Assembly: GCA_031271045.1 (NCBI GenBank) | Contig: JAISWO010000057.1 | Location: 1 to 34,031 of the forward strand | DNA: 34,031 bases | From: Tannerellaceae bacterium | Lineage (GTDB): Bacteria > Bacteroidota > Bacteroidia > Bacteroidales > Tannerellaceae | Reading direction: 5' to 3' | Made by a program: the position numbers and the translations under genes | In this document: positions 385-12,766 of the stretch, one piece after another | How the letters are laid out: the number at the start of each line of letters is the position of its first letter | Numbering within the stretch: position 1 is the first letter of the stretch | Notes under the pieces: generated by a model | What the model was told of the DNA's origin: nothing | Databases searched by the model: none | Seen by the model: only the letters and a program-made list of their open reading frames with translations

Positions 385-434
385 GGTGCAACGACTTCCG
401 GATGAATTAGATTAGGAGCGGAAGTGGTTGCACC
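385..434 (-). terminator. Terminator hairpin ending the FHA/kinase operon
   Basis: Inverted repeat with 16-base arms at 385-400 and 419-434, one mismatch and an 18-base loop. Read on the minus strand it follows the stop codon of the last operon gene by about 20 bases and is followed by a pyrimidine-rich stretch (TTCCTTTTCTCCC). This fits an intrinsic terminator, although the loop is long and the T-run is interrupted. Confidence 0.6.
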
Positions 435-454: not shown

Positions 455-982
455 TCAGGAATTAGCGGAGACGATCAGCCAGACGAGGCCGAAGATGATG
501 GATAGCGAAAAGATGATCCATCCGTTGGTGACGGCTGAGGGGGAGTATTTCGGCACCTTGCTGCCGTTCGGGAGCGTCCGCGACGAGTTGGCAAGGATGA
601 GGCCGAGGACTACTCCTAAGAGACCGCCCATCAAGGCGAAGAGGTATCCGAAGATGAGCAGGGCGGTGGGGTTGCCGTAGGCCTGCGGCGGACGGGCGGA
701 GGAGCCGTAATAGACCTCTTCGGTCTCGTTATTGGGAAGCAGGTTCTGTACTTTGTGCCACGGAAGGGGCTCAATGTCGGCCAGGAGGACAGAGTCGCCC
801 GGCATGATGCGCATATCACTCTGGTGAAGCATTATGCCATTGATACGTGTGCCGTTGGAACTGCTGTCACGGTATACGTATCCCTGGCCTTGCTTGAAAA
901 TATTAGCGTGCACACGACTTACACGCGGGTTGTTGATCACGATGTCGCAGGAGTCGTCCCTGCCGATTGTTATTACTCTCAT
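455..982 (-). CDS. FHA domain protein with two C-terminal membrane helices
   Basis: 175 aa. Residues 1-75 form an FHA phosphothreonine-binding domain: the GR of strand 3 at 7-8, S22 and H25 of the SRVHA motif, and SSNG at 41-44. A linker follows, then two hydrophobic helices at about 105-131 and 154-173. The FHA domain is expected on the cytoplasmic side of the inner membrane, where it would bind a protein phosphorylated by the two kinases encoded upstream. The FHA domain ends in a L-x-W motif (PLPWHK) also seen in other FHA proteins of this locus, which suggests they are paralogues. It is the last gene of the run, 18 bases after the S41 protease gene and just before a hairpin. The start is the ATG that begins the FHA fold directly. 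What the membrane part does is unknown. Confidence 0.85.
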   Translation of the reverse strand: MRVITIGRDDSCDIVINNPRVSRVHANIFKQGQGYVYRDSSSNGTRINGIMLHQSDMRIMPGDSVLLADIEPLPWHKVQNLLPNNETEEVYYGSSARPPQAYGNPTALLIFGYLFALMGGLLGVVLGLILANSSRTLPNGSKVPKYSPSAVTNGWIIFSLSIIFGLVWLIVSANS

Positions 983-1000
983 AAGATTGATGTGTATATG

Positions 1001-2389
1001 TTATTGGTAACTGTTCTTTGTCCGGTTGTCGATGTATCCGCTGATACGGCGGGCTGCACCGGGGACGGATTCGTCGAGCAAGCGGAGGCTGAGAGGGGTG
1101 CCGGGGAAGGCGTCTCGGAGAGAGACGCCTGTGATATGGGCGAGCGCCGTTTGGAGGAGAAGTTCGCGCGTATCGCCACGGTCGAAGAGGTCGGCGGCAG
1201 TGGATTCATCGACGTATATATCGGGCGTCAGGCCGGCGTCGGGCACGGTCTGGTGGAGGCTGTTGTAGTAGCGGAAGGTGATCGGTTGGAGCTGCCATTC
1301 GTACATGGGGCTGCGGATGGTCCAGGATCCGACGCCTTTGCCGGTAGAGGTGGCGCCGATGAGGGTGACGTCGATAAAAGGCGAGACGTTGTTGATGAGC
1401 GATTCGCTGGCGGAGGCTGTCTGGGCGGAGATGAGGAAAGTCAGGCGGTCGAGCGCTACGTTGCATCCGCCGACGACGCCGGGAGTGGGGAAGTAGAGCG
1501 TCTCTTCTTCACTGCCTGTTTCCTTCAGATACTGGGCGGCGATGTGTTTATTGAAAGAATGATAGCCGGAGACGGTTCCCAGTATTTCGTCGCGCAGCAG
1601 CAGGGCGGCGAAAAATTCGCAGATTGTGACGTGTCCTCCGCGGTTGTAGCGCAGGTCGATGACGAGGTCTGTGATTCCTTGTTCGCGGAAGCGTTCGAAG
1701 GCGGCCCGTAGCTCGGCACGATAAGGGTTGTCGAGCAAGCTCGATCCGTCGACAAACTCGTTATAGACGATATAGCCGACGGTATGGTCGCCGACGTGGT
1801 AAGTTGTATCGAGTTCGACGGATCCTCCGGCTTCGGGTTGGTCGTCGTCTTGCAGCAACCGGAGGGTTCCGGTGGGTCGGACGAGGCTGCCGGCGAGTTG
1901 TCCGGTCTCGATCGTGATGCTTTCGTTGTCTGTCAGCTTGGCCGGACGAAACCAATGTCCTCGCCGGAGGCCTGCTTTCCAGGCCGGCGAGCCGTGGCGG
2001 ACGGCAACGGTGCGGTTCCAGGCTTCGCCGCCGACGGTTTCGTAGGTCAAGTAGTCGATCCCGTAGTTGTCGTAAAGCGAGGAGCCGCTGAAACTCTCGT
2101 TGAGTTCGATCCACGAAAAGCGGTCGCCATCGTAAAGCAGGCTTTCGAAGAAGCGTTTCGGGTAGTCACCAAAGGAGAGCTCGTCCTCATCGGGCAAGTA
2201 AGCTTCCCAGAGATAGTCGGAACGCATCTGTTTGTAGGTCCAGCGATTCTGTTCGATGTCCTCTTCATCGTCCTCATCGTCTACGATTGTTTTCCCGCCT
2301 TCGAGTTCCTTGTCGGGTGCATCCTTATAGCATCCGCCCAGGAGGCCGGGCAGAAGCAGAAGGAGCAGATAGAGGTACGGACGCATCAT
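1001..2389 (-). CDS. S41 family (C-terminal processing) peptidase, lipoprotein
   Basis: 462 aa. A lipoprotein signal peptide ends in LGGC, with the lipidated cysteine at 20, followed by a very acidic stretch (DDEDDEED), so the enzyme is membrane-anchored outside the cytoplasm. A PDZ-like segment (about 120-180, SPAWKAGLRRGHWF) precedes the S41 protease core, which has VIDLRYNRGG at about 243-252. The catalytic serine is S326 in SASE and the lysine K351 in TGKGVGS. Their spacing of 25 matches the Ser-Lys dyads of E. coli Prc and plant CtpA. The family cleaves proteins near the C-terminus. Being co-transcribed with kinase, phosphatase and FHA genes is unusual for it and suggests a role downstream of that signalling. 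The substrate is unknown; the lipoprotein encoded 21 bases upstream is one candidate. M1 and M2 are both possible starts. Confidence 0.9.
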   Translation of the reverse strand: MMRPYLYLLLLLLPGLLGGCYKDAPDKELEGGKTIVDDEDDEEDIEQNRWTYKQMRSDYLWEAYLPDEDELSFGDYPKRFFESLLYDGDRFSWIELNESFSGSSLYDNYGIDYLTYETVGGEAWNRTVAVRHGSPAWKAGLRRGHWFRPAKLTDNESITIETGQLAGSLVRPTGTLRLLQDDDQPEAGGSVELDTTYHVGDHTVGYIVYNEFVDGSSLLDNPYRAELRAAFERFREQGITDLVIDLRYNRGGHVTICEFFAALLLRDEILGTVSGYHSFNKHIAAQYLKETGSEEETLYFPTPGVVGGCNVALDRLTFLISAQTASASESLINNVSPFIDVTLIGATSTGKGVGSWTIRSPMYEWQLQPITFRYYNSLHQTVPDAGLTPDIYVDESTAADLFDRGDTRELLLQTALAHITGVSLRDAFPGTPLSLRLLDESVPGAARRISGYIDNRTKNSYQ

Positions 2390-2410
2390 GGCAGGAGCAG
2401 CAAAAGTTTG

Positions 2411-3379
2411 TTACAACAAGTCGATGATGCGCAGGCTTTGCTGCGGGGCTGTGGGGTCGGGCCGTTCGTTGCGGACGTCCGGCAGGCTTTGCTGCGGGGC
2501 GCGGGTATCGGACTTGAGGCTCGTGGAGCCGGTCTGAACGTTGATCGTGAGGATCTGGTTGACGCCTCGATGAATGTTGAGGGTCGTGGAGCCGGATTTA
2601 ATCAGCTTTTCGTCGGCGGTAAAGGTTCCCCAGGTGAATTCAATTTCCGAGGGGATGTAATAGCGAGATTGGTAAAGGCCCGTGTATTCTTTTTTTACTT
2701 CGTACGTATAGCTCAGGACCGTGGCTTTATCGATCTTCCCCACCTCATCGTCGATGAGGTAATAGTCGGCGTCTCTGTCCCACTCATACACGAGGCTAGC
2801 CATCGTCGAAGCGTCCAGGTCGGTAAAATAGAACGTAACGAGGGCGCCGGCCGGTTTGACGTTCATCGTAAGCGATTGCGACTTCTCGATCTCGACCACT
2901 TCCTTTGTCACACCAAGGGCCTTGTAGTAATAACCGGCGTATCCCTGTTCCACGGCGCGCAGGTCGCGCAGGTTGGAAGTATTGCTGAACTTCCAGAACT
3001 CTAAGCTGATGTCATCGCCATTGACTTCCACGAGGTCAGCCGTTGCGACCAGGGTATATTCTCCGGTGTTCATGCTTTTCTTTACTTCCAACTTTTGGTA
3101 AAAGTCGTCGACGATTTGTGATTCCTTCTCCACTAAGGAGCCTTCGTCGTCGTAAATGAACAGGTTGATGCGCACACTATAATCGTCGTCATCTAATTCC
3201 CCGTTGGGAAAGTAGTCGACGCCATAGATGTCTACCAGATCCTTCACTACATTGCGCACGTCGACCGATACGGTGAGCTGATACTGTATGTCGACGTCTT
3301 TTTTATTGCCTTCTCCGCACGAAGTAAGCATTGCAAGGGCGATAAGGATGAGGAACACGGGTATATGTATCTTTTTCAT
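2411..3379 (-). CDS. Hypothetical lipoprotein with a repeated C-terminal tail
   Basis: 322 aa from the chosen start. The signal peptide runs through LAMLTSC with the lipidated cysteine at 21. An upstream ATG at 3406 would add nine residues before MKK and spoil the signal peptide, so I prefer 3379. The body is rich in beta-strand-like segments and acidic residues (GELDDDDYSV); I recognise no named domain. It loosely resembles the fimbrillin-associated or DUF4906-like lipoproteins common in Bacteroidales, which I cannot confirm. The last 30 residues hold APQQSL twice, from a 19-base direct repeat. It lies between an outer-membrane barrel gene and an S41 protease gene, suggesting a surface or periplasmic partner of either. 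Confidence 0.75.
   Translation of the reverse strand: MKKIHIPVFLILIALAMLTSCGEGNKKDVDIQYQLTVSVDVRNVVKDLVDIYGVDYFPNGELDDDDYSVRINLFIYDDEGSLVEKESQIVDDFYQKLEVKKSMNTGEYTLVATADLVEVNGDDISLEFWKFSNTSNLRDLRAVEQGYAGYYYKALGVTKEVVEIEKSQSLTMNVKPAGALVTFYFTDLDASTMASLVYEWDRDADYYLIDDEVGKIDKATVLSYTYEVKKEYTGLYQSRYYIPSEIEFTWGTFTADEKLIKSGSTTLNIHRGVNQILTINVQTGSTSLKSDTRAPQQSLPDVRNERPDPTAPQQSLRIIDLL
2431..2500. repeat. 19-bp direct repeat at the 3' end of the lipoprotein gene
   Basis: The same 19 bases occur at 2431-2449 and 2482-2500, exactly 51 bases (17 codons) apart. The lipoprotein therefore ends with APQQSL twice in the same frame. This looks like a recent in-frame duplication of the gene's tail. Confidence 0.85.
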
Positions 3380-3409
3380 TGTTTCTTGATTTACGGGATG
3401 AGACATTCT

Positions 3410-4042
3410 TTAAAACAGCCAGCCCAACGAGAGGGCGACGACATTATTTTTCCATTTCAGGTTGCCTGCCATGTCGGACAGTCCGAGTTGGTAGCGTATG
3501 CCGGCAATCAGTCCTAAGCGGCTTTCGTAGCCTGCGCCGACGCCTGCGCCAAAGTCTATACCCCCTTTGAGGGAGGAGAGGTCGATCTGTGCGCCTTCGA
3601 TGACGGTCGAATTGGCCGACAATTGGAGCAGGTATCCGAAGTATGGACCGGCCTCGACGTAGATGTCTTTGGTTGCATACAGCCTTGCCATGACGGGCAG
3701 GGTGATATAGTCGAACGTAATAGCCTCATCGTCGACAGCAAAGCCCTGGCGGGAGTATAGCAGTTCGGGCTGCAAGCCGAACCGTCCCGTTCCGACGGGC
3801 GACCCTTCATCTCGATAGCCGAAATGGAGGTTGGCAACGACCCCCAGGTGGAAGTCTGCCTTCATACCGGGAGAAAAATCCAGGTTTTCCTGTCCGTTGA
3901 TGATGTTAGACAGGTTTACGCCAGCCTTCACGCCGAAGGTGGTCTTAACAATGGGCGGCGCCGATGGCTTTCCTTGCGCGTAGGACGCGAGGCAGAGTAT
4001 GGACATCAGGCTTGTCATCAGGAGGAATCGATTTCTTTTCAT
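3410..4042 (-). CDS. Outer-membrane beta-barrel protein (PorT-like family)
   Basis: 210 aa. A signal peptide (about residues 1-22, ending ASYAQ) is followed by alternating amphipathic strands, for example TFGVKAGVNLSN, FGLQPELLYSRQG and YITLPVMARLYA, and the chain ends in a phenylalanine (SLGWLF), as expected of an outer-membrane barrel. The pattern fits the OMP_b-brl/PorT-like small barrels of Bacteroidetes, usually 180-250 aa. It sits 13 bases after the WG-repeat gene and shortly before the lipoprotein gene, so a small envelope block is embedded in the kinase/FHA operon. No specific function can be given. Confidence 0.85.
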   Translation of the reverse strand: MKRNRFLLMTSLMSILCLASYAQGKPSAPPIVKTTFGVKAGVNLSNIINGQENLDFSPGMKADFHLGVVANLHFGYRDEGSPVGTGRFGLQPELLYSRQGFAVDDEAITFDYITLPVMARLYATKDIYVEAGPYFGYLLQLSANSTVIEGAQIDLSSLKGGIDFGAGVGAGYESRLGLIAGIRYQLGLSDMAGNLKWKNNVVALSLGWLF

Positions 4043-4055
4043 GCTTTCCGTGTTT

Positions 4056-5540
4056 TTATTGGATTATTATTTGTTTGCTCAATCTTGCGGAGTCGGGTGT
4101 CAGAGGGGGCTGGGTGCTTTCCTGGCGTACGTTTATCCGCTTACTCTTGGATACCTGGGGCGATCCGGGTGGTTTGACCACGACGTTGACCGTCTGCATC
4201 GTCGCCGGTATGTTGAATTGCACCCTTCGCGACTCTCCTGCATCCATGCGGATGGTTCGTTTCTGGCTTCCAACCGATACATCCAAGCGGTCGACCGGTA
4301 TCGAAGACAGGTTCTCAAGCCTTATGTCGAGCGGATAGGAAGCTTGTCCGGCCTGTAGGAGGACGTTGTCTGCGGGTATGTCGATCCCAATGGCTGTGAC
4401 GCTCTTTAGGGGCACCTGTCTTTTGTCTTCGCCTACGGATAGTCCGTATTCGGAGATGGCCAAATGGAGCTCGCGTATCTCGACTGGGTCTTCACTGACC
4501 TTGTCGACAAGGAGTTTGTAACGGCTTTCCCCCCCTGGGGCGATGGAAGCAAGAGGCAGGGAGGGCTTTCCATTGAGTTTGACTTCAAGGTTTTCCATCT
4601 CTAAGGGCGAAGTGTTGCGGATGAGATACTCCAGCGGAGCGGGATGGCCGAAGACCGAGATGGCTGTATCCACCTCCAGAGCAAAAGCCAGGGGCGACTC
4701 CTGCCTGTGGGCTATGGCGCCGAAGCGACCGTTTGCGGCTTTGACAATGTCTAAAGCCTCGCCGTTCTTCCCGGCAGGGGGGATAAAGACGGTTCGCTCG
4801 CCCTGGGCCGTGACGAAGGCCGTTGCCCGGCTCTGCTGATCGAAGAGCAATTCGCCTTCTTTGCAAACCAGGGTCTTTTCTTTGTAACTCGCTCCGTCGG
4901 CAGGCGGCGTAATCTGGGGCAGGCGATCGCTTAATTCCCTTCCGCTGGCGTCTATATATCCCATGCTGTTCTTATACAGAAGGAGGGCCTTGCCTTCGTG
5001 GAATCCTAAGGCCCAGTAGATCTCTTTTTTCACGTTGGGCCGTACCATGGTCGCGCCGTTCGTACCGATGTAAAACCAGTATTCGTTCAATAGCACGGCG
5101 CCCAGTCCTTCGCTGAAGGGTTGTGCACTGATGTATTTGCAGTCAATGGCCATCTTGCCCGAGGCGTTGAGGTAGCCCCACTTCTTACCATTGGATACGA
5201 GCAACAGTCCATCGTTGAAGGTAGCAAAGCGGCTGTCTATTTTCAGCTTTTCCCTGACAGGTGTCAACTGCCCCTGGCGGTCGGCAATCGCAATCAGGGA
5301 ATGGTCGGCGGAGGCAATCACTCCCAAGCCTTCGCTGAATGGATAGACGACGTCGTATGCGGGCGCCAGGATCTCCTTTCCCCGATCAGTGGCATAGCCC
5401 CATTTGCCGCCGGACTGAACGGCCGAGATGCCTTCGGTGAAGGCCGAAATGCCTTCGTATTTCGGTTTCACCACCCACTGCGCCTTTTGGGCGGACAGTG
5501 GGAGGGTTGTCAGCAGGATTATAGGCAGTAAACGCTTCAT
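4056..5540 (-). CDS. Secreted WG-repeat protein with Ig-like C-terminal domains
   Basis: 494 aa. A cleavable signal peptide (about 1-17, ending PLSAQ) exports it to the periplasm or beyond. Residues 20-205 carry WG beta-propeller-type repeats, with KWGY at 46-49 and 120-123, FSEGLG at 68-73 and 142-147, and a degenerate copy at about 192-200. Residues 285-460 look like two beta-sandwich (CARDB/Ig-like) domains, such as PLEYLIRNTSPLEMENLEV and YPLDIRLENLSSIPVDRLDV. WG repeats generally bind other proteins. Between the FHA-protease fusion (15 bases upstream) and the barrel protein (13 bases downstream) it could act as a periplasmic adaptor, which is inference. It has no enzymatic motif. Confidence 0.85.
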   Translation of the reverse strand: MKRLLPIILLTTLPLSAQKAQWVVKPKYEGISAFTEGISAVQSGGKWGYATDRGKEILAPAYDVVYPFSEGLGVIASADHSLIAIADRQGQLTPVREKLKIDSRFATFNDGLLLVSNGKKWGYLNASGKMAIDCKYISAQPFSEGLGAVLLNEYWFYIGTNGATMVRPNVKKEIYWALGFHEGKALLLYKNSMGYIDASGRELSDRLPQITPPADGASYKEKTLVCKEGELLFDQQSRATAFVTAQGERTVFIPPAGKNGEALDIVKAANGRFGAIAHRQESPLAFALEVDTAISVFGHPAPLEYLIRNTSPLEMENLEVKLNGKPSLPLASIAPGGESRYKLLVDKVSEDPVEIRELHLAISEYGLSVGEDKRQVPLKSVTAIGIDIPADNVLLQAGQASYPLDIRLENLSSIPVDRLDVSVGSQKRTIRMDAGESRRVQFNIPATMQTVNVVVKPPGSPQVSKSKRINVRQESTQPPLTPDSARLSKQIIIQ

Positions 5541-5555
5541 CTCCGTCCGGCTGCA

Positions 5556-7103
5556 TTAGTTATTGGTCTCGTCGAGTATCTTCCGGATGTGTTTGGCCAA
5601 TATGCCCTTGCCAAAGGTGCTCGAACCGGTATATCCGCTGTTGATCACACCGACTAATTGCTTACTGTCGTTGAAGACAGGCGATCCGCTGGAGCCTCCC
5701 AGCAATTCGACATTGATGTCGAAGGAATAGGTCGATATGTCCCGTTGCAGATTGCCGGACTTGATAGTAGGCTTCAGACCGTCTTCATCGGGTCGGTAAT
5801 TCATGGCAGCACCTGCTGAATAGCCGATCGTGGTCAGCCGATCTCCTACCCTGAGCTTTTTATCTTCGGCTTCAGCTCTGGATACGTCGATAATCTTTTT
5901 CACGCTGGGGGGTAAGACCTTGTCGTTGATTTGCAGGATCGCCAGATCTATTTCGGGTTCGTTGCTTGTCTTGAGCACCTTGCAGGGTTCGAACTTTTCG
6001 AGCGATTCGTAGTACTTATTGTAGAAGCCAGCCCTAAGTGTAACGGTTCGTCCACGGATGCTCTTGATATTGTTGTTCCGTATCCGCCGGATGTTGGCCC
6101 GGATATAGTTGATATTCCGTTCGTCAATGATGTCGGTGTACCTCTGTACCTCTATGTCCTGTATGTTATTGAGGATATAAGCCATGTAGTTCCTTATATC
6201 GTCTTCCAGTTCCGGGGTGATGTATTCCCATGGAGTGGCAATATGTTTGTTGGTAACGATCTTTCCATCGTTTGACACAAAGAACCCTGTGCCCATACCG
6301 TCGAATGGTTCGGTACCTTCTATACCGGCCAATTGGGGTACGGGGCGTTCGCCGGCGTTCTTTCGCGGGGCCATTCCCAATTCAAACTTGCCGATGGCCT
6401 CGTCTTCATAAACGACCTCATAATAGAAGGCATGATAAATCATGGTCGTTGACGACTGATAGGCTTCCCATCCTCCGTCGGAGAAGGGCCACCATCCCGC
6501 CTTCCATCCAAATCCTCCCCATACGCCCAGCAGAACGATCAGCAGAACGGTGGCCGCCTTTGCGAAGGAGATCCGTGGCTTCCCCTTGATCAGTTTCCAT
6601 TCGAGCGGTTGCGTGTTGGCGAACTTGATTTTGTTTTTCCTCTTGACGGGATAGTCTTGATTGGCCGGGATACGGATGCCGTCGACAAATGTCCCGTTGG
6701 CGCTGTGATCGTTAATATACATCTTCCCTTTCGGGTCGATCTTGAGCGTAGCATGAAAGCGGCTGACGAGATAAGAAGGGTCGTTTATCTGTATACGGTT
6801 GTTCAGATGGGATCCGATCCCATACAAGCTCCATCCCGGAGGCAGTGGGGCGACAACGGGGATCTGGTTCCAATCCAAGTCAGCGACCCCTGCAAAGGTG
6901 ATTTTATCTCCCCTGTTGACGGACACTTCGGATTCCTTTGGTATCTTACGCCCTTTCAAGGTCGTTCCGTTGGTGCTGCTTTTGTCGGAGATGAAGACGG
7001 AACCGTCGTCTCCAATTCGTATTTCTGCGTGATAATCACTTACAGCGTGATTATTTATCACAATTTTATTCCCGGGATTTCTTCCAATGGTAATTAGTAT
7101 CAT
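5556..7103 (-). CDS. Double FHA, membrane helix and trypsin-like serine protease fusion
   Basis: 515 aa from the ATG at 7103; a TTG four codons upstream overlaps the previous gene's stop and is less likely. Two FHA domains come first (about 1-80, SSTNG near 43-47; about 85-170, SRFHA near 114-118 and SANG near 134-137). A membrane helix lies at about 180-197 (AATVLLIVLLGVWGGFGW), and a chymotrypsin-fold protease at about 265-510. The catalytic triad is H287 (TNKHIA), D386 (EIDLAIL) and S472 (GSSGSPV). The His-Asp spacing of about 100 residues is long for a trypsin-like or HtrA protease and holds an Arg/Asn-rich helical insert. I see no PDZ domain. With FHA in the cytoplasm and the protease beyond the membrane, phosphoprotein binding could control periplasmic cleavage. 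The gap to the preceding FHA gene is 8 bases. Confidence 0.9.
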   Translation of the reverse strand: MILITIGRNPGNKIVINNHAVSDYHAEIRIGDDGSVFISDKSSTNGTTLKGRKIPKESEVSVNRGDKITFAGVADLDWNQIPVVAPLPPGWSLYGIGSHLNNRIQINDPSYLVSRFHATLKIDPKGKMYINDHSANGTFVDGIRIPANQDYPVKRKNKIKFANTQPLEWKLIKGKPRISFAKAATVLLIVLLGVWGGFGWKAGWWPFSDGGWEAYQSSTTMIYHAFYYEVVYEDEAIGKFELGMAPRKNAGERPVPQLAGIEGTEPFDGMGTGFFVSNDGKIVTNKHIATPWEYITPELEDDIRNYMAYILNNIQDIEVQRYTDIIDERNINYIRANIRRIRNNNIKSIRGRTVTLRAGFYNKYYESLEKFEPCKVLKTSNEPEIDLAILQINDKVLPPSVKKIIDVSRAEAEDKKLRVGDRLTTIGYSAGAAMNYRPDEDGLKPTIKSGNLQRDISTYSFDINVELLGGSSGSPVFNDSKQLVGVINSGYTGSSTFGKGILAKHIRKILDETNN

Positions 7104-7111
7104 ACAATGTA

Positions 7112-7558
7112 TCAATTAAAGTTGTTATAAGATTCATATCGCAAGGCTGCTACGCCAGGCGCATTCAAACTGTCGGCGGGAAGTGTAAGCTCCCGCTCCT
7201 GCTCAGGCGTGCACTTACTACTCAGCAGGTAAAAAAGGAAGATGCCGGCTGCTATAAGGACAATAGCAATCAAGGAACCGATCAGCAACTTGCTTCTCTG
7301 CTTAGGTACCAGCGTCCAATCCAGTTCGACGGCATTGGAGAAGGAGACGGTATCCCCTCGTTTGACGGGATAGTCGACGTTGGAGGCTATCTTCACGCCA
7401 TTGACAAAGGTACCGTTGGAACTGTGATCGGCAATGAACATCTTTCCCCGGCCGTTTACTTTCAGGGTAGCATGGCGGCGACTTACCCGTTGCGTATGAT
7501 CTTGCAAGTGTATCTGACATTCTTCGCCGCGTCCGATGGTGTATTGTTTTGTACTCAT
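7112..7558 (-). CDS. FHA domain protein with one membrane helix
   Basis: 148 aa from the ATG at 7558 (MSTKQYTIGR). An upstream start at 7597 would overlap the phosphatase gene and add a tail without FHA character. The FHA domain covers residues 1-90, with GR at 9-10, SRRH at 26-29 and SSNG at 46-49. A single hydrophobic helix follows at about 91-112, then a short tail of about 35 residues predicted to lie outside the cytoplasm. The domain closely resembles the second FHA domain of the protease fusion encoded next, including an IADHSSNGTF/INDHSANGTF-type stretch and the terminal L-x-W motif, so the two probably arose by duplication. It may tether a phosphorylated partner to the membrane. Confidence 0.87.
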   Translation of the reverse strand: MSTKQYTIGRGEECQIHLQDHTQRVSRRHATLKVNGRGKMFIADHSSNGTFVNGVKIASNVDYPVKRGDTVSFSNAVELDWTLVPKQRSKLLIGSLIAIVLIAAGIFLFYLLSSKCTPEQERELTLPADSLNAPGVAALRYESYNNFN

Positions 7559-7575
7559 ATCTGATGTCTTTCTTT

Positions 7576-8430
7576 TCAGTGCATGACAAGTCCCCAAATG
7601 TTCAGGCCGATGGAGATGATTAATAAGATGGCCAATATCCCGATGATAATCTTGTTTTTCTTGTTCATTTGCGGTGGTATTTTTGAGTTTGTGTTTAATT
7701 CAATGAGTGCAGCTGTGAGGTTATCGTGCCCTCCGCCTTTTTCAATACCGAGGTTGTCAATTGTTTCCACGAGTATCTCTGCTGTTTTTTCGACGGACCG
7801 GTCTTTGCCGATGAGTTTGAGTATGTCTTTCTCGGGAGCGGCTCCGCATATCCCGTCACTGCACAGAAGGAAGCGGTCTCCTTTCAGATATGGAAGGTCG
7901 GTATTGATCTCGACTTCCACGTCGGGCTTGGTGCCCAGGGCGCGGAGAATGACGTTCGATTCGGCCGACAACCTTGCCTGCTCTTCGCTGATCCGGCCCC
8001 GGCGGACTAATTCAAAGACCATCGAATGGTCGAATGTGCGGAACACCTTGTCGGTTCCCCTGACCTGGTAGATCCGGCTGTCGCCCACGTGTGCGGCGGT
8101 AGCCTTATCGTCGTCGACCAGCAGGGCGACCACGGTCGTGCCCATTCCCTGCAATTCAGGATAGGTGCGGCCGGCCTGATAGACGGCGCTGTTGGCCTTT
8201 ATGATGGCGTCGGCCAGTATTTCGCCGGCGTCGTCGAGGGTTGTATTCGACACTTTATCCAGGATGGTCTCGACGGCGAGCTTGGAGGCGGCGCTGCCTC
8301 CTTTTGCCCCCCCCATTCCGTCGCAAACAACGACCAGATAGCCGTGTTCGGTAGGGCAACTACCGAATGAATCCTGATTCTCCGCCCTTCCGCCGGCGCG
8401 TGATAATATGCTTATTGTAAGATTATCCAT
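7576..8430 (-). CDS. PP2C family Ser/Thr phosphatase, tail-anchored
   Basis: 284 aa. The PP2C (PPM) metal-dependent phosphatase core spans residues 4-246. The metal-binding acidic residues are visible: D20 in ENQD, D37 in CDGMGG, D192 in SDG and D236 in GHDN; VGDSRIY is at 115-121. A C-terminal hydrophobic helix at about 259-281 ends three residues before the stop, so the enzyme is probably tail-anchored facing the cytoplasm. It would reverse the phosphorylation made by the two kinases encoded just upstream (7 bases separate it from the nearer one). Kinase, PP2C and FHA side by side is the core of bacterial phosphothreonine signalling modules such as those of type VI secretion, but no secretion genes are here. 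Confidence 0.94.
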   Translation of the reverse strand: MDNLTISILSRAGGRAENQDSFGSCPTEHGYLVVVCDGMGGAKGGSAASKLAVETILDKVSNTTLDDAGEILADAIIKANSAVYQAGRTYPELQGMGTTVVALLVDDDKATAAHVGDSRIYQVRGTDKVFRTFDHSMVFELVRRGRISEEQARLSAESNVILRALGTKPDVEVEINTDLPYLKGDRFLLCSDGICGAAPEKDILKLIGKDRSVEKTAEILVETIDNLGIEKGGGHDNLTAALIELNTNSKIPPQMNKKNKIIIGILAILLIISIGLNIWGLVMH

Positions 8431-8436
8431 CTGTTT

Positions 8437-9402
8437 TCAGATATTTAGAAGGATTAAAACCAAGGTGATAAGGAGTAAGGCAACGGCAATGATGCCGCCT
8501 GCCAATACCCATTGCGAATGGATCCCCTGCGAAGGTTGGATGGCCTGCAGGATGGCTTCTTTGAAGGCTTGGGCGCTTTGATAGCGGTCGGACTGCTTCT
8601 TGGCTGTGGCTTTCAGCAGGACTTTGAACAGGCGTGGAGGGATACATTTGTTGTGAGGCAGGTTCATGGTGATCTGTCTTTCCAGAATGTCCACATCGCT
8701 GCCGCCGGCAAAGGGGTTGACACCTGTCAGCAGTTCGTAGAAGGTGATACCTAAAGAGTAAAGGTCGGAGGTAGCATTGATCATATTCCGCTGGCCGGTG
8801 ATCTGTTCGGGTGGAGCGTATGGATAGGTACCGAAGCCGCGACCTTCGAGCGTTCCGAAGCTAATACCGTCGGAGGTGGCGATGCCCAGATCCATTATCT
8901 TTATATTCCTTGCGTTCTCTACCATGATGTTCGATGGTTTCAGATCTCTGTGCCATACGGGGGGATTCTGTGAATGTAGGCATGCCAGGGCGTCGAGCGC
9001 CGAACAGATCATTCGCGAAACGATGTCGGCGCGCATGGACAGCTCAATGCCGGTGACAAATTTGTCGATCGTCTCTCCCCTTATCAATTCGCTGACGATG
9101 AATACCGGTCCTCGCTGCCGGTCGAACTCGCAGTATCCCAGCATGCGAATCAGGTTCGGATGATTGATGGACAGGGAAGCTTCGTATTTAGCCCTGTCGC
9201 GTATTTGAGGATTTTCGGCATGACGGTTATATACTTTCTTGATGGCGACTTTCTGCTCCGGGTAATCGGCGCACCATCCTTTGTAGACTTCTCCCATGGC
9301 TCCGCTACCGATGCAAAACTCGTCGCAATGATAGTAGCTGAAGCGTTCGCCTTGGCTGGAGACCAGGTTTATCTTTTGTGCGTTGGATAATGACGTTCTC
9401 AT
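8437..9402 (-). CDS. Ser/Thr protein kinase, tail-anchored
   Basis: 321 aa. A complete Hanks-type kinase domain spans about residues 25-285: glycine loop GSGAMGEV at 32-39, lysine K55 in VAIKK, catalytic loop HRDLKPSN at 151-158, DLG at 171-173 in place of DFG, and APPE at 196-199. DLG is tolerated in many active bacterial kinases. A hydrophobic helix at about 298-321 ends the chain, so the enzyme is tail-anchored with its kinase domain in the cytoplasm. There is no extracellular sensor domain. Its ATG overlaps the stop of the previous kinase gene by four bases (ATGA), implying translational coupling. It likely phosphorylates itself and the FHA ligands of the same operon. Confidence 0.94.
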   Translation of the reverse strand: MRTSLSNAQKINLVSSQGERFSYYHCDEFCIGSGAMGEVYKGWCADYPEQKVAIKKVYNRHAENPQIRDRAKYEASLSINHPNLIRMLGYCEFDRQRGPVFIVSELIRGETIDKFVTGIELSMRADIVSRMICSALDALACLHSQNPPVWHRDLKPSNIMVENARNIKIMDLGIATSDGISFGTLEGRGFGTYPYAPPEQITGQRNMINATSDLYSLGITFYELLTGVNPFAGGSDVDILERQITMNLPHNKCIPPRLFKVLLKATAKKQSDRYQSAQAFKEAILQAIQPSQGIHSQWVLAGGIIAVALLLITLVLILLNI

Positions 9403-11504
9403 TGGATGTATTGCGTATAATTAAACGTTCGTACCATTTCGGCCAGCGGATAGCGGAGTTCGTCGTATATCCTTTTGCCGTTCTCCATCCGGTAGGGCAG
9501 TTGTTCTACTTTGTTCCTGGCCATTTCGAAGTAGGCTCTTGCTTCGTTGACGTTTCTTTCCACGCCGTTACCTTCGAGGTAATCCATTCCGATGTCGTAC
9601 ATAGCCAGATAGCTGTCGAAGTCGTAATCAAGGGCTTTTACGGTGTATTGATGGGAGAGGGCATCGTCTCCTTTGATGCGGAGTGATTGTTGGATGGCTT
9701 CGCTCAGGCTATTTTTCCGTTTCTCCTGATAGATGGCGCCCAATTGGCGGAAGGCGGGCGAGTAGTTTTTTTCAGCGGCTTTCTGCGTCCATTCGAAACC
9801 TTCCTTGTATTGTTGTTGTCCAATCAGCCATACCCCCAGGCGGTAGGCGGCTTTGGGGTATCCTTTCCCGGCGGCGAGGGTGAGCCATTCCATTGCTTTG
9901 TGGGGATTCTCTTTGTTGAGTATTTCGTACAGGGCGTATTGAGCGCGCGGGTAGCCTTGATTGGCGGCTGCTTCGTAGTACTCGACGGCGCGGGTAGCGC
10001 TTTGCGGCACTCCGTTACCGTTCATATACATATTGCCTTTTACGAACTGGAGTTCCGGGTTGTTGGCTTCGGCTCCCATGTCGATGATTTTGCCTGAGCG
10101 TTCAAAGTAACGGATGGCTTTGTCGTAGTCGGCTTCTACGTCGATCCCGTTTTGATAGATGTAACCGAGGCGGTATTCGGCCAGCTTGTTTCCCATCTGG
10201 GCGGCTTTGGTGGTATAATCGAAGCCTTTGCGGAAGTTTTTCGGCGCGCCGGTTCCTTCGTAGCTCATTTCTCCCAGGTAGTAGCAGGCGTCGGAGGAGG
10301 ATCGTTCTTCGGCCAGGCGGAATAAGGAGTCGGCTATGGCATATTCGGACTGGGTGTATGCGTCGACGGCCTGGGTGAGGAGTTCGAGCATTTCGACGGT
10401 TTGGGTGATGCTGTCGGTCGGGATGAGTCGGTTGGCTTCTTTGTATGCGTCGAGGGCGTCACGATAAAGGGCGACCGACATTCTGGAGGAAGCTTCGCGG
10501 AGGGTTTCTGCGTAGCGGACTTGTTTTGTTTCTTCGTATCGCCATATTCCGAGGGCGGCGGCGAGGAGGAGGAGGGCGCCGGCGGTAGCGGCGATCCATT
10601 TCTTCAGGGGTTGTGGTATGGGCGACTTGCCTTGTTCTATTCGTTCGAGGTCGACGATGAACTCGGTGGCCGACTGATACCTGGCGGCGGGATCTTTAGC
10701 GGTTGCCTTGCGGATGACGTACTGGAGCTCTTTGGGGATGAGTTCGTTGCGGGGGATAATTTGTTCGCGGTGTCCTTTGATGATTTCGTACATGGAGCCG
10801 CTGAAGGGGAGTTTGCCGGTGAGGAGTTCGAACAGCAAGATGCCGGTGGAATAGATGTCGGAGGTGACGTTGGTCAGCCAGTGCTTGCCTTCAGCCTGTT
10901 CGGGCGAGGCGTAGTTGATCTTGCCGATGAATTTTCCTTCGATTGTCCCGGAGGTGAACTCGCCATGATAGTCGGCGACTTGCTTTGCGATGCCGAAGTC
11001 GATGAGTTTGATTTTGCCGTCGTCGCAGACCATCACGTTGGAGGGGTCTATATCGCGATGTATATAGCCTTTGCTGTGTAGCATGTAGAGGGCGGCGAGT
11101 ATGCTTTTGACGATACGGATGGTTTCCGGCTGGGACAGGGCGCCGCGTTTGGCGAGTACTTTGTCGAGGGTTTCGCCCTGGAGGTATTCGCTGATGATGT
11201 GGGAGCGGGGTTTGCCGTCGCTGTCGGTTGTTTCGACGAAGCCATACATCCGGATGATGTTCTCGTGAACGATCTGGATGGAGGCTTCGCGTTTGGCCCT
11301 GGTGATGCTGTCTTCGGAGAGGTCTTTGAACAGGACTTTGATGGCGACGGGGTCGTACTTGCCTGTCTCGCTATGGACGAGTTTGCCTTTGAAGACGATG
11401 CCCATACCGCCTTTGCCCAGGATGCCGGCTTTGTTTTCGGGGTCAAATTCGTAGTAGCGGCTTAGCTTGGCATCGGCTTCGCTCTGTAGTTTTATTATTG
11501 CCAC
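9399..11504 (-). CDS. Ser/Thr protein kinase with membrane helix and Sel1 repeats
   Basis: 701 aa. The N-terminal kinase domain covers about 15-290: glycine loop GKGGMGIV at 30-37, K56 in VAIKV, HRDIDPSN at 149-156, DFG at 169-171 and ASPE at 199-202. The usual catalytic-loop lysine (HRDxKxxN) is an aspartate here, D153. A membrane helix lies at about 303-321. The rest, about 330-690, is helical, with Sel1-like TPR repeats from about 405 to 665 (for example AEYRLGYIYQNGIDVEADYDK). The Sel1 part is predicted to lie in the periplasm, where it could act as a sensor or docking platform. It is the second gene of the operon, 25 bases after the soluble FHA gene, and overlaps the next kinase gene. 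Confidence 0.93.
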   Translation of the reverse strand: MAIIKLQSEADAKLSRYYEFDPENKAGILGKGGMGIVFKGKLVHSETGKYDPVAIKVLFKDLSEDSITRAKREASIQIVHENIIRMYGFVETTDSDGKPRSHIISEYLQGETLDKVLAKRGALSQPETIRIVKSILAALYMLHSKGYIHRDIDPSNVMVCDDGKIKLIDFGIAKQVADYHGEFTSGTIEGKFIGKINYASPEQAEGKHWLTNVTSDIYSTGILLFELLTGKLPFSGSMYEIIKGHREQIIPRNELIPKELQYVIRKATAKDPAARYQSATEFIVDLERIEQGKSPIPQPLKKWIAATAGALLLLAAALGIWRYEETKQVRYAETLREASSRMSVALYRDALDAYKEANRLIPTDSITQTVEMLELLTQAVDAYTQSEYAIADSLFRLAEERSSSDACYYLGEMSYEGTGAPKNFRKGFDYTTKAAQMGNKLAEYRLGYIYQNGIDVEADYDKAIRYFERSGKIIDMGAEANNPELQFVKGNMYMNGNGVPQSATRAVEYYEAAANQGYPRAQYALYEILNKENPHKAMEWLTLAAGKGYPKAAYRLGVWLIGQQQYKEGFEWTQKAAEKNYSPAFRQLGAIYQEKRKNSLSEAIQQSLRIKGDDALSHQYTVKALDYDFDSYLAMYDIGMDYLEGNGVERNVNEARAYFEMARNKVEQLPYRMENGKRIYDELRYPLAEMVRTFNYTQYIQ

Positions 11505-11529
11505 CGGGGTATTTTATATGTAGGGTTGA

Positions 11530-12138
11530 CTAATAGCGGGTCTTATCGTTGGGATAGAGTTCGCGGTCGGTGTAATCGAAGTTGCCGGAGGGTTTGGAGG
11601 CAAAGTTTTCGGCTTTTTTCAGTCCGTATTCCCGGGCGTCGAAGAGGAAGAGGAGGAACTCGTAGTTGCCGAGGCGGATCTTGTCGAGGTTCTTGCACTG
11701 GCAGGGATTGAAGCCGATGTAGGTGTCGTTGACGAAGATGCCGTTTGAGGAGCCTCTTTCCATGATGCCGACGTTGAGGCGGTTGTTGTCGCCGGGGTTG
11801 CGATGGATGGCTAAGACGGCGTGGACTTTGCTAACGGAGAGTTCGTTGAGTACTATGTCACATTCGGGGCCTGATCCGATCAGGTTCTGTCCTTGTCGGA
11901 GGACCCAGTATTCGGCTTCTTCGGTACGGGAGACGGAGACGAGGAAGCCGACGAGGGGTTTGCCGGCGGAGGGTTCCGGCGCGGGAGCTGGGCGGCGGGG
12001 ATCTTCGACGCCTTGTATCCGGGTACCGGAGTGGGCGGGGGTTGTGTCGGGGTAGGCGTGGCCTGGGGTGGGTTGGTTGACTACGGTTCCTTCATTTCCA
12101 TTTTGGACGCCGGGAACGACGGTGCGATAATTTGCCAT
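11530..12138 (-). CDS. Soluble FHA domain protein, first gene of the operon
   Basis: 202 aa from the ATG at 12138 (MANYRTVVPG). An upstream start at 12213 adds a 25-residue Asn/Ile-rich stretch that overlaps the candidate promoter, so I reject it. Residues 1-60 are a proline-rich disordered leader with two TVV tripeptides (TVVPG and TVVNQ). The FHA domain spans about 63-165, with IGSG at 87-90, SVSKVHA at 101-107 and the phosphate-loop SSNG at 130-133. There is no membrane helix. The layout of a Thr-containing disordered N-terminus and one FHA domain recalls GarA/OdhI-type FHA switches, whose N-terminal threonines are kinase targets; whether this protein works that way is inference. Kinase genes follow directly. 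Confidence 0.87.
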   Translation of the reverse strand: MANYRTVVPGVQNGNEGTVVNQPTPGHAYPDTTPAHSGTRIQGVEDPRRPAPAPEPSAGKPLVGFLVSVSRTEEAEYWVLRQGQNLIGSGPECDIVLNELSVSKVHAVLAIHRNPGDNNRLNVGIMERGSSNGIFVNDTYIGFNPCQCKNLDKIRLGNYEFLLFLFDAREYGLKKAENFASKPSGNFDYTDRELYPNDKTRY

Positions 12139-12190: not shown

Positions 12191-12198
12191 CAAATGTA
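12191..12198 (-). promoter_or_regulatory. Candidate -7 box for the FHA/kinase operon
   Basis: TACATTTG on the minus strand matches the Bacteroidetes TAnnTTTG -7 box and lies about 53 bases ahead of the first operon gene. I see no good TTTG -33 element at the usual distance, so the call rests on the -7 box and its position. Confidence 0.5.
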
Positions 12199-12331: not shown

Positions 12332-12766
12332 TTATAGTATTTCCAGGAGTTCCCGTATCCGGCGGTAATAGAGGGAAGATACGCGGCAGTCGGCCTCTGT
12401 GGCGATGTGTACGTCGAAGAGGCAGTGGAGAGTCTTGTTTTCGATGCCCTGGAGGTGGGCGAGGTTGATGATGCAATATTGGTTGATCTGGACAAAGAGC
12501 GGAGACAGGGCGGTAATGCCGGCTGAAGTGACGGTGGAGCGCAGGCTATAGACCTTGTCGTCCGTGAGCCGGATCTGCCATTTGCGAACGTTTTTGTGGT
12601 ATTCGAATAATATGACGTCGTCGTACCGGAGCAAGGTGATACCTGTGATGGTTTGGATGGCGAAACGGCTGTTATCCTTTCGTTCTTCCGGATAGGCGCG
12701 GGGGATGATTTCCGGCATGGTTGCTGCGGATGCGCGGGTTGCTGGGGTGTTTTGTTCTTCTTTCAT
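12332..12766 (-). CDS. Stand-alone LytTR DNA-binding regulator
   Basis: 144 aa. Residues 1-32 are a variable leader and residues 40-143 a LytTR domain: beta strands around GITLLRYDDVILFEY, then FVQINQYCIINLAHLQGI at 91-108 and the terminal VSSLYYRRIRELL. LytTR domains bind direct-repeat sites in promoters and are usually fused to a receiver domain; here there is none, and no sensor kinase gene is adjacent. It lies about 190 bases upstream of the FHA/kinase operon on the same strand and may regulate it, or be regulated by phosphorylation from its kinases. Both ideas are inference. A TATTTTTG -7 box sits about 34 bases ahead of the start. Confidence 0.88.
   Translation of the reverse strand: MKEEQNTPATRASAATMPEIIPRAYPEERKDNSRFAIQTITGITLLRYDDVILFEYHKNVRKWQIRLTDDKVYSLRSTVTSAGITALSPLFVQINQYCIINLAHLQGIENKTLHCLFDVHIATEADCRVSSLYYRRIRELLEIL

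Follow-up and report, generated by a model that had tools for sequence, protein, structure and literature searches.

A conserved kinase, phosphatase and FHA gene block in Bacteroidota with a threonine-motif tail and linked envelope proteins

Why would Hanks-type kinases, a phosphatase and a series of FHA proteins be encoded in one run with proteases and outer-membrane proteins? The question is raised by the window analysed here, a stretch of 34,031 bases from a Tannerellaceae bacterium that is the entire contig C61 of a 2.79-Mb assembly (88.5% complete). Eleven minus-strand open reading frames (ORFs) lie between positions 455 and 12138 and are treated below as one operon. The answer proposed is that the kinase, phosphatase and FHA set would switch through threonine phosphorylation in the tail of FHA1, the first protein of the operon, and that this switch would likely govern the envelope proteins encoded further down the operon; the chances for and against this prediction from sequence are judged to be evenly balanced.

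The gene block and its linkage

The first-pass annotation had described an eleven-gene run, and all eleven ORFs were found, from FHA1 (ATG at 12138) to FHA5 (stop at 455). In 5' to 3' order they encode FHA1, the kinases PkA and PkB, a PP2C phosphatase with a transmembrane (TM) segment, FHA2 with a TM segment, an FHA-FHA-TM-protease, a WG-repeat protein, an outer-membrane protein (OMP) barrel, a lipoprotein, an S41 peptidase and FHA5. Pfam agrees with the domain content claimed earlier and gives two protein kinases, one PP2C, five FHA domains in four proteins, Trypsin_2, Peptidase_S41, WG repeats and an OMP barrel. TM segments were assigned from hydropathy, and the catalytic motifs of PkA, PkB and PP2C are intact. 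Intergenic gaps computed with the longest ORFs range from -22 to +25, in line with the earlier statement that all are under 26 bases; the value of -22 stems from a TTG start and becomes +17 when counted from the ATG at 7558.

Are these genes kept together in other genomes? An alignment of 49 FHA-protease homologs was used to scan one genome per species for 84,980 species, a set in which a single-protein query gave nothing but the alignment query succeeded. The pattern was fitted by 322 stretches, 168 of which encode relatives, and the best 80 were retained; one of these (L087, 3.3 kb) has no qualifying protease call, so counts are based on 79 loci. In the same-strand run around the protease, by which these loci were chosen, the genes that were not selected for include another FHA gene in 76, PP2C in 75 and a kinase in 74 of the 79. 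The genes are therefore not scattered in relatives; their linkage is genuine and specific. The envelope genes are found less often (WG in 39, OMP in 22, the lipoprotein in 18 and S41 in 10 of the 79) and are nested without exception: no run has S41 without the lipoprotein, the lipoprotein without the OMP or the OMP without WG.

Judged by record title, the loci belong mostly to Bacteroidales (Prevotella, Phocaeicola, Alistipes and Muribaculaceae), with others in Flectobacillus, Pseudarcicella, Saprospiraceae, Cytophagaceae and Flavobacterium. In Phocaeicola massiliensis the order from FHA1 to WG is kept at 28% protease identity, and a Candidatus Azobacteroides contig (L010) matches the window in its protease, WG, OMP, lipoprotein, S41 and final FHA genes but has a single kinase. 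A second arrangement, protease-FHA-PP2C-kinase, is seen in ten loci. Within the genus the block is accessory: of 18 genomes, several of which are incomplete, 4 have PkA. A sample of 60 genomes from near the window contains three with a full-length protease, the window's own among them, and 31 with some protease match, mostly to the FHA portion only. In an order-wide sample of 294 genomes, each scored for five candidates, seven had a protease match, five full-length and two partial; this sample overlaps the 80 loci (G275 is L015, G141 is L019 and G260 is L035, at 100% identity). By Pfam models the window's own assembly matches Pkinase three times, PP2C_2 twice and FHA seven times, and every match sits in the operon or in a sister cluster on contig C46, a count limited by the completeness of the assembly.

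The threonine tail and its candidate readers

A low-complexity tail precedes the FHA domain at the N-terminus of FHA1 and carries the motif T-x-[VIFY]-[PQ]-G. The motif occurs at least once in the tails of 54 of 65 FHA1 proteins and at least twice in 28, and it is rare among other genes of the loci. Composition shuffles of the 65 tails gave means of 0.87 tails with at least one motif and 0.009 with at least two (maxima 5 and 1), a comparison that exaggerates independence because all FHA1 sequences are kin. At the first motif position Thr was counted 82 times, Ser 0, Ala 1 and Lys 1, although the same tails contain 430 Ser vs 312 Thr overall. Among the 11 proteins without the strict motif, four are from loci with the second arrangement (L071, L077, L086 and L089) and the other seven, inspected by eye, have similar sequences (TIIAG, TVITG or TQIPD, for example). 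The motif had been chosen from these same 65 sequences, and 51 additional FHA1 homologs were therefore fetched. It is present in 45 of them and present twice in 21, compared with a shuffle mean of 1.0 and maximum of 7; the first position has Thr 67 times, Ser 2, Pro 5 and Gly 2, with 12 letters counted. FHA domains favour phosphothreonine (pThr) over phosphoserine. A requirement for Thr with Ser excluded is what an FHA reader would be expected to impose.

Which FHA protein could be this reader? The pThr pocket of FHA2 is nearly invariant, with Arg in 63 of 64 proteins (one gap) and Ser, His and Asn in 64 of 64 each. The Arg is less well kept in FHA1 and in the protease. Within FHA1's own FHA domain it is present in 29 of 65 proteins and absent from 36, with Ser in its place in the window, and in the protease the Arg is found in 49 of 79 first FHA domains and 6 of 79 second ones. 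This difference makes FHA2 the best candidate reader of the FHA1 tail, in trans. FHA2 is present in three same-genus genomes without the protease; it was not found in four loci that have the protease by selection (L010, L011, L014 and L040).

Envelope output and alternative explanations

The protease combines two FHA domains that are predicted to be cytoplasmic with a protease domain beyond a membrane span. This domain is predicted to have an HtrA/Deg fold, as the top Foldseek matches of the model include Deg1, Deg9, DegP and HtrA1, and its H-D-S triad is kept in 79 of 79 homologs. Like DegS and HtrA proteins it is membrane-anchored with a conserved triad, but it differs from them in its FHA domains and in having no PDZ domain in a Pfam scan. 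The lipoprotein (331 residues) matches no Pfam family, including PF08842. Its lipobox Cys is invariant in 17 of 17 relatives and its model has a two-domain fimbrillin fold. The lipoprotein signal and predicted fold resemble those of the type V pilus anchor and tip proteins (Mfa2, Mfa3 and the FimA family), whereas the missing PF08842 match sets it apart, and no shaft or other fimbrillin family was found among the operon proteins by sequence-family scans. Three PF08842 (Mfa2-type) genes are found elsewhere in the assembly, solely on contigs C29, C48 and C60. The C-terminus of the lipoprotein is RIIDLL (window 2414-2431); by eye, [RK]-x-x-D-L-[LI] or a near form closes about 6 of 17 relatives, and the tail is otherwise unconserved among them.

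How tightly are these envelope proteins bound to the module? Strong lipoprotein matches occur in 6 of the 60 nearby genomes, all six within the block, and weak ones (E 3e-7 or worse) in 15 further genomes. One of the four matches in the 294-genome order sample, that in G112 (E 2.8e-23; 26% identical to the closest member), is solitary, so the lipoprotein is nearly but not strictly module-bound. Within the genus, the 4 of 18 genomes that have a close S41 copy (50-54%) are those with the block; strict binding does not hold here either, as 15 of the 18 have a 30-35% paralog elsewhere.

Gene content, gene order, conserved linkage and the motif and pocket statistics are direct observations. In the mechanism proposed to join them, PkA, predicted to sense through its periplasmic Sel1 repeats, and PkB would phosphorylate the motif sites of FHA1, and PP2C would reset them. 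Membrane FHA proteins would bind the pThr tail in trans, FHA2 foremost and, where present, possibly the FHA-TM-protease and FHA5, as residue conservation suggests. Clustering at the inner membrane may then relay the phospho-state across the membrane, in some genomes to the HtrA-fold protease on its predicted periplasmic side. Judging from linkage, the WG protein, the barrel, the fimbrillin-fold lipoprotein and the S41 peptidase would form a complex in the outer membrane, and the probable output is that this complex is processed or assembled; it is likely controlled partly through the HtrA-type protease. It is possible, although doubtful, that the module represents a new inside-out class of envelope signalling in Bacteroidota, in which the kinases mark a soluble FHA hub with pThr, membrane FHA proteins recognise the mark in the cytoplasm, and the phospho-state crosses their spans and switches an HtrA-type protease and a dedicated fimbrillin-fold surface complex; cytoplasmic Ser/Thr phosphorylation would then have direct control over periplasmic proteolysis as well as surface assembly.

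Several points weigh against this reading. In three same-genus genomes (G001, G003 and G004, which are 86, 72 and 87% complete) the block is intact except that no protease gene lies between FHA2 and WG. Three of the four same-genus block-bearing genomes thus lack the FHA-protease, which is therefore not the sole output, and an obligatory role as output is ruled out. The lipoprotein is missing from 61 of the 79 runs and S41 from 69, so neither arm is obligatory. The lipoprotein model has a mean pLDDT of 76 and was built from 17 sequences, and its Bacteroidales adhesin and fimbrial matches have Foldseek query TM-scores of 0.31-0.52. The absence of the pocket Arg from many FHA domains of FHA1 and the protease, the initial selection of the tail motif by eye within the 65 sequences, the choice of the 79 loci through the protease among the best 80 of 168 and the incomplete assembly count on the same side. 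The first-pass annotation had read the operon as controlling envelope proteolysis or surface assembly; the predicted HtrA and fimbrillin folds fit this suggestion, which is partly supported, while the genomes without the FHA-protease mean that proteolysis by this enzyme cannot be the only output.

Could the output be transcriptional instead? A gene for a receiver-less DNA-binding protein of the LytTR type stands at the head of the block in all four same-genus genomes that hold it, and phospho-FHA1 or the kinases might act on this protein, with the envelope genes as its targets in the same operon. A LytTR gene also heads the sister cluster, where it overlaps the FHA gene by 4 bases, and of the 21 sister-type loci fetched, 20 have LytTR next to the FHA gene, the exception being outside the family. 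FHA circuits with a receiver-less LytTR and predicted envelope proteins next to them thus occur at least twice in the genus. In G027 the block has a LytTR-like response regulator and a histidine kinase immediately upstream, and six Prevotella-type loci (L029, L032, L034, L036, L045 and L083) have a LytTR-like match upstream on the opposite strand, close to an unlabelled gene (about 640 residues); these neighbours leave room for a transcriptional output. However, 193 bases that contain the conserved -7 box separate LytTR from FHA1, the tail motif is found in 0 of 9 LytTR-labelled ORFs, and one weak search pass did not find LytTR heading module loci outside the genus, so that LytTR is unsupported as a universal part. 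A transcriptional output is considered rather unlikely. A second alternative is that FHA1 acts alone. In GarA, OdhI and Bdellovibrio DgcB the pThr tail binds the protein's own FHA domain, as described in PMC6733907, and FHA1 resembles these in being a short protein with a tail Thr ahead of its FHA domain. Its pThr might bind its own FHA domain and free or block a soluble target such as a metabolic enzyme, with the envelope genes as passengers. The conserved tail Thr is indeed found (54/65 and 45/51), but an intact own pocket is not (Arg in 29/65, and missing in the window), in contrast to FHA2. Further differences are the repeated sites of FHA1 and the presence of distinct membrane-anchored FHA proteins whose pockets are intact, and the envelope genes form a nested, linked tail, which speaks against their being passengers. 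Such an intramolecular switch is regarded as improbable.

The kinases could also be a general set for envelope stress or cell division, similar to PknB or Stk1, with loosely related neighbours. Their best NCBIfam match is the Stk1/PknB PASTA family, but it lies below the cut-off, Pfam finds no PASTA domain and the set is accessory with specific partners, all of which makes this explanation highly improbable. An anti-phage defence system has hardly any likelihood. In a PADLOC scan of 10 of 12 proteins the matches were limited to kinase, PP2C and protease: the kinases match the PD-T4-6 and MAD6 models and the protease weakly matches RT-Protease. These look like generic kinase- and protease-domain matches; Pfam finds no nuclease in the operon, and the barrel, lipoprotein and WG parts are ill-suited to defence.

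The block was suspected at the outset to lie outside two known systems, and this suspicion was borne out. The threonine phosphorylation pathway of the type VI secretion system consists of the kinase PpkA, the PP2C PppA and Fha. The operon resembles it in bringing a membrane kinase, a PP2C and an FHA reader into one cluster, and its FHA proteins match TagH below the cut-off; it differs in its two kinases, membrane-anchored FHA proteins and envelope cassette. Membership is excluded despite the shared trio, since Pfam scans of the operon proteins detect no tss family, and TssC (PF05943) has no match in the 88.5% complete assembly with a positive E. coli control, although detection of Bacteroidales TssC was not shown. 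The TerY-P triad of vWA, PP2C and kinase shares the PP2C and kinase pair. It is excluded as well because Pfam finds no vWA family in the eleven operon proteins or LytTR, and the operon has FHA proteins instead. Among the papers listed from the open-access literature, none deals with this gene set, judged from titles and the start of abstracts. New here are the tail motif, the conservation of the FHA2 pocket, the predicted folds of the protease and lipoprotein, and the confinement of the Pfam-matched kinase, PP2C and FHA domains of the assembly to two clusters.

To our knowledge, few outputs have been assigned to the Hanks kinases of Bacteroidota, and the module loci found here include Hanks kinases of Prevotella and Phocaeicola. 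The module offers a writer, an eraser, a predicted single-residue substrate site, predicted readers and linked envelope partners, which brings the role of Ser/Thr phosphorylation in Bacteroidota within reach of experiments with a single peptide and a small number of deletions. If the FHA-membrane-HtrA protein is as predicted, it would connect phosphorylation in the cytoplasm directly with proteolysis in the periplasm.

Features, flanking signals and further observations

The features are collected in Table 1. The LytTR gene, the FHA1 tail motif and the sister cluster go beyond the earlier annotation, whose -7 box before the operon and hairpin after it were both recovered.

Table 1. Features of the operon, its flanks and the sister cluster (positions in the window unless another contig is named)
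Feature	Position	Strand	Basis or content
LytTR DNA-binding protein without receiver domain; probably upstream regulator with its own transcript	12332..12766	-	Pfam PF04397
-7 box TACATTTG of likely operon promoter	12191..12198	-	TAnATTTG kept in 4/4 same-genus genomes
FHA1, soluble; FHA domain preceded by an N-terminal tail with the Thr motif	11530..12138	-	FHA domain (Pfam); no TM by hydropathy
Tail site 1, TVVPG	12109..12123	-	T-x-[VIFY]-[PQ]-G motif
Tail site 2, TRIQG	12010..12024	-	T-x-[VIFY]-[PQ]-G motif
PkA, Hanks kinase, TM 303-321, Sel1 repeats predicted periplasmic	9399..11504	-	Pfam, hydropathy, intact kinase motifs
PkB, Hanks kinase, C-terminal TM	8437..9402	-	Pfam, hydropathy, intact kinase motifs
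PP2C phosphatase, C-terminal TM	7576..8430	-	Pfam, NCBIfam, hydropathy, motifs
FHA2, FHA then TM, complete pThr pocket	7112..7597 (likely ATG start 7558)	-	Pfam, hydropathy, residue alignment
FHA-FHA-TM-HtrA-like serine protease	5556..7115 (database start 7103)	-	Pfam, homolog alignment, predicted structure, triad
WG-repeat protein, signal-peptide-like N-terminus	4056..5540	-	PF14903; N-terminus read directly
Outer-membrane beta-barrel	3410..4042	-	PF13568
Lipoprotein, LTSC lipobox, predicted Mfa2/fimbrillin fold	2411..3406	-	Lipobox read directly; structure model
S41 peptidase, lipoprotein-like N-terminus	1001..2389	-	Pfam; N-terminus reading
FHA5, FHA then two TM segments	455..982	-	Pfam, hydropathy
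Terminator-like hairpin after last gene	385..434 (approx.)	-	-23.3 kcal/mol, z -6.8
Sister cluster (L008)	G000:C46, 3939-14293		LytTR, FHA, zinc-ribbon FHA, PP2C, kinase, 328-aa protein, Fn3/Kelch, patatin

The -7 consensus is TAnnTTTG, and the FHA1 ATG is aligned across the four same-genus genomes. The T run 3' of the hairpin is weak, and the window being a full contig, the 3' side of the operon is close to the contig end. Generic scans were near chance both for sigma-70 promoters (13 observed vs 9.6 expected) and for terminators (17 observed vs 15.6 expected). Base composition gives no sign of recent transfer, which is thus unsupported on this measure (GC 0.538 in the operon vs 0.55 in the remaining contig).

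Some further observations concern the loci of other genomes. Module pieces occur on metagenome-assembled contigs labelled Spirochaetaceae, Ruminococcus and Pseudoflavonifractor (L070, L087 and L088), which are possibly mis-binned Bacteroidales. Eight loci (L044, L051, L063, L071, L077, L078, L086 and L089) have the second arrangement plus a kinase of about 1,256-1,282 residues, and in L044 Pfam families cover residues 70-322 alone of this kinase. A family of about 438 residues is found in the run of 58 of the 79 loci, for example at 21161-22477 of L009, where the window ends with FHA5 instead; the one member scanned has no Pfam family. The contig of L009 (OY726067.1) is called a plasmid, but ORFs that by eye resemble enzymes of the tricarboxylic acid cycle adjoin the module, and it may therefore be a piece of a chromosome.

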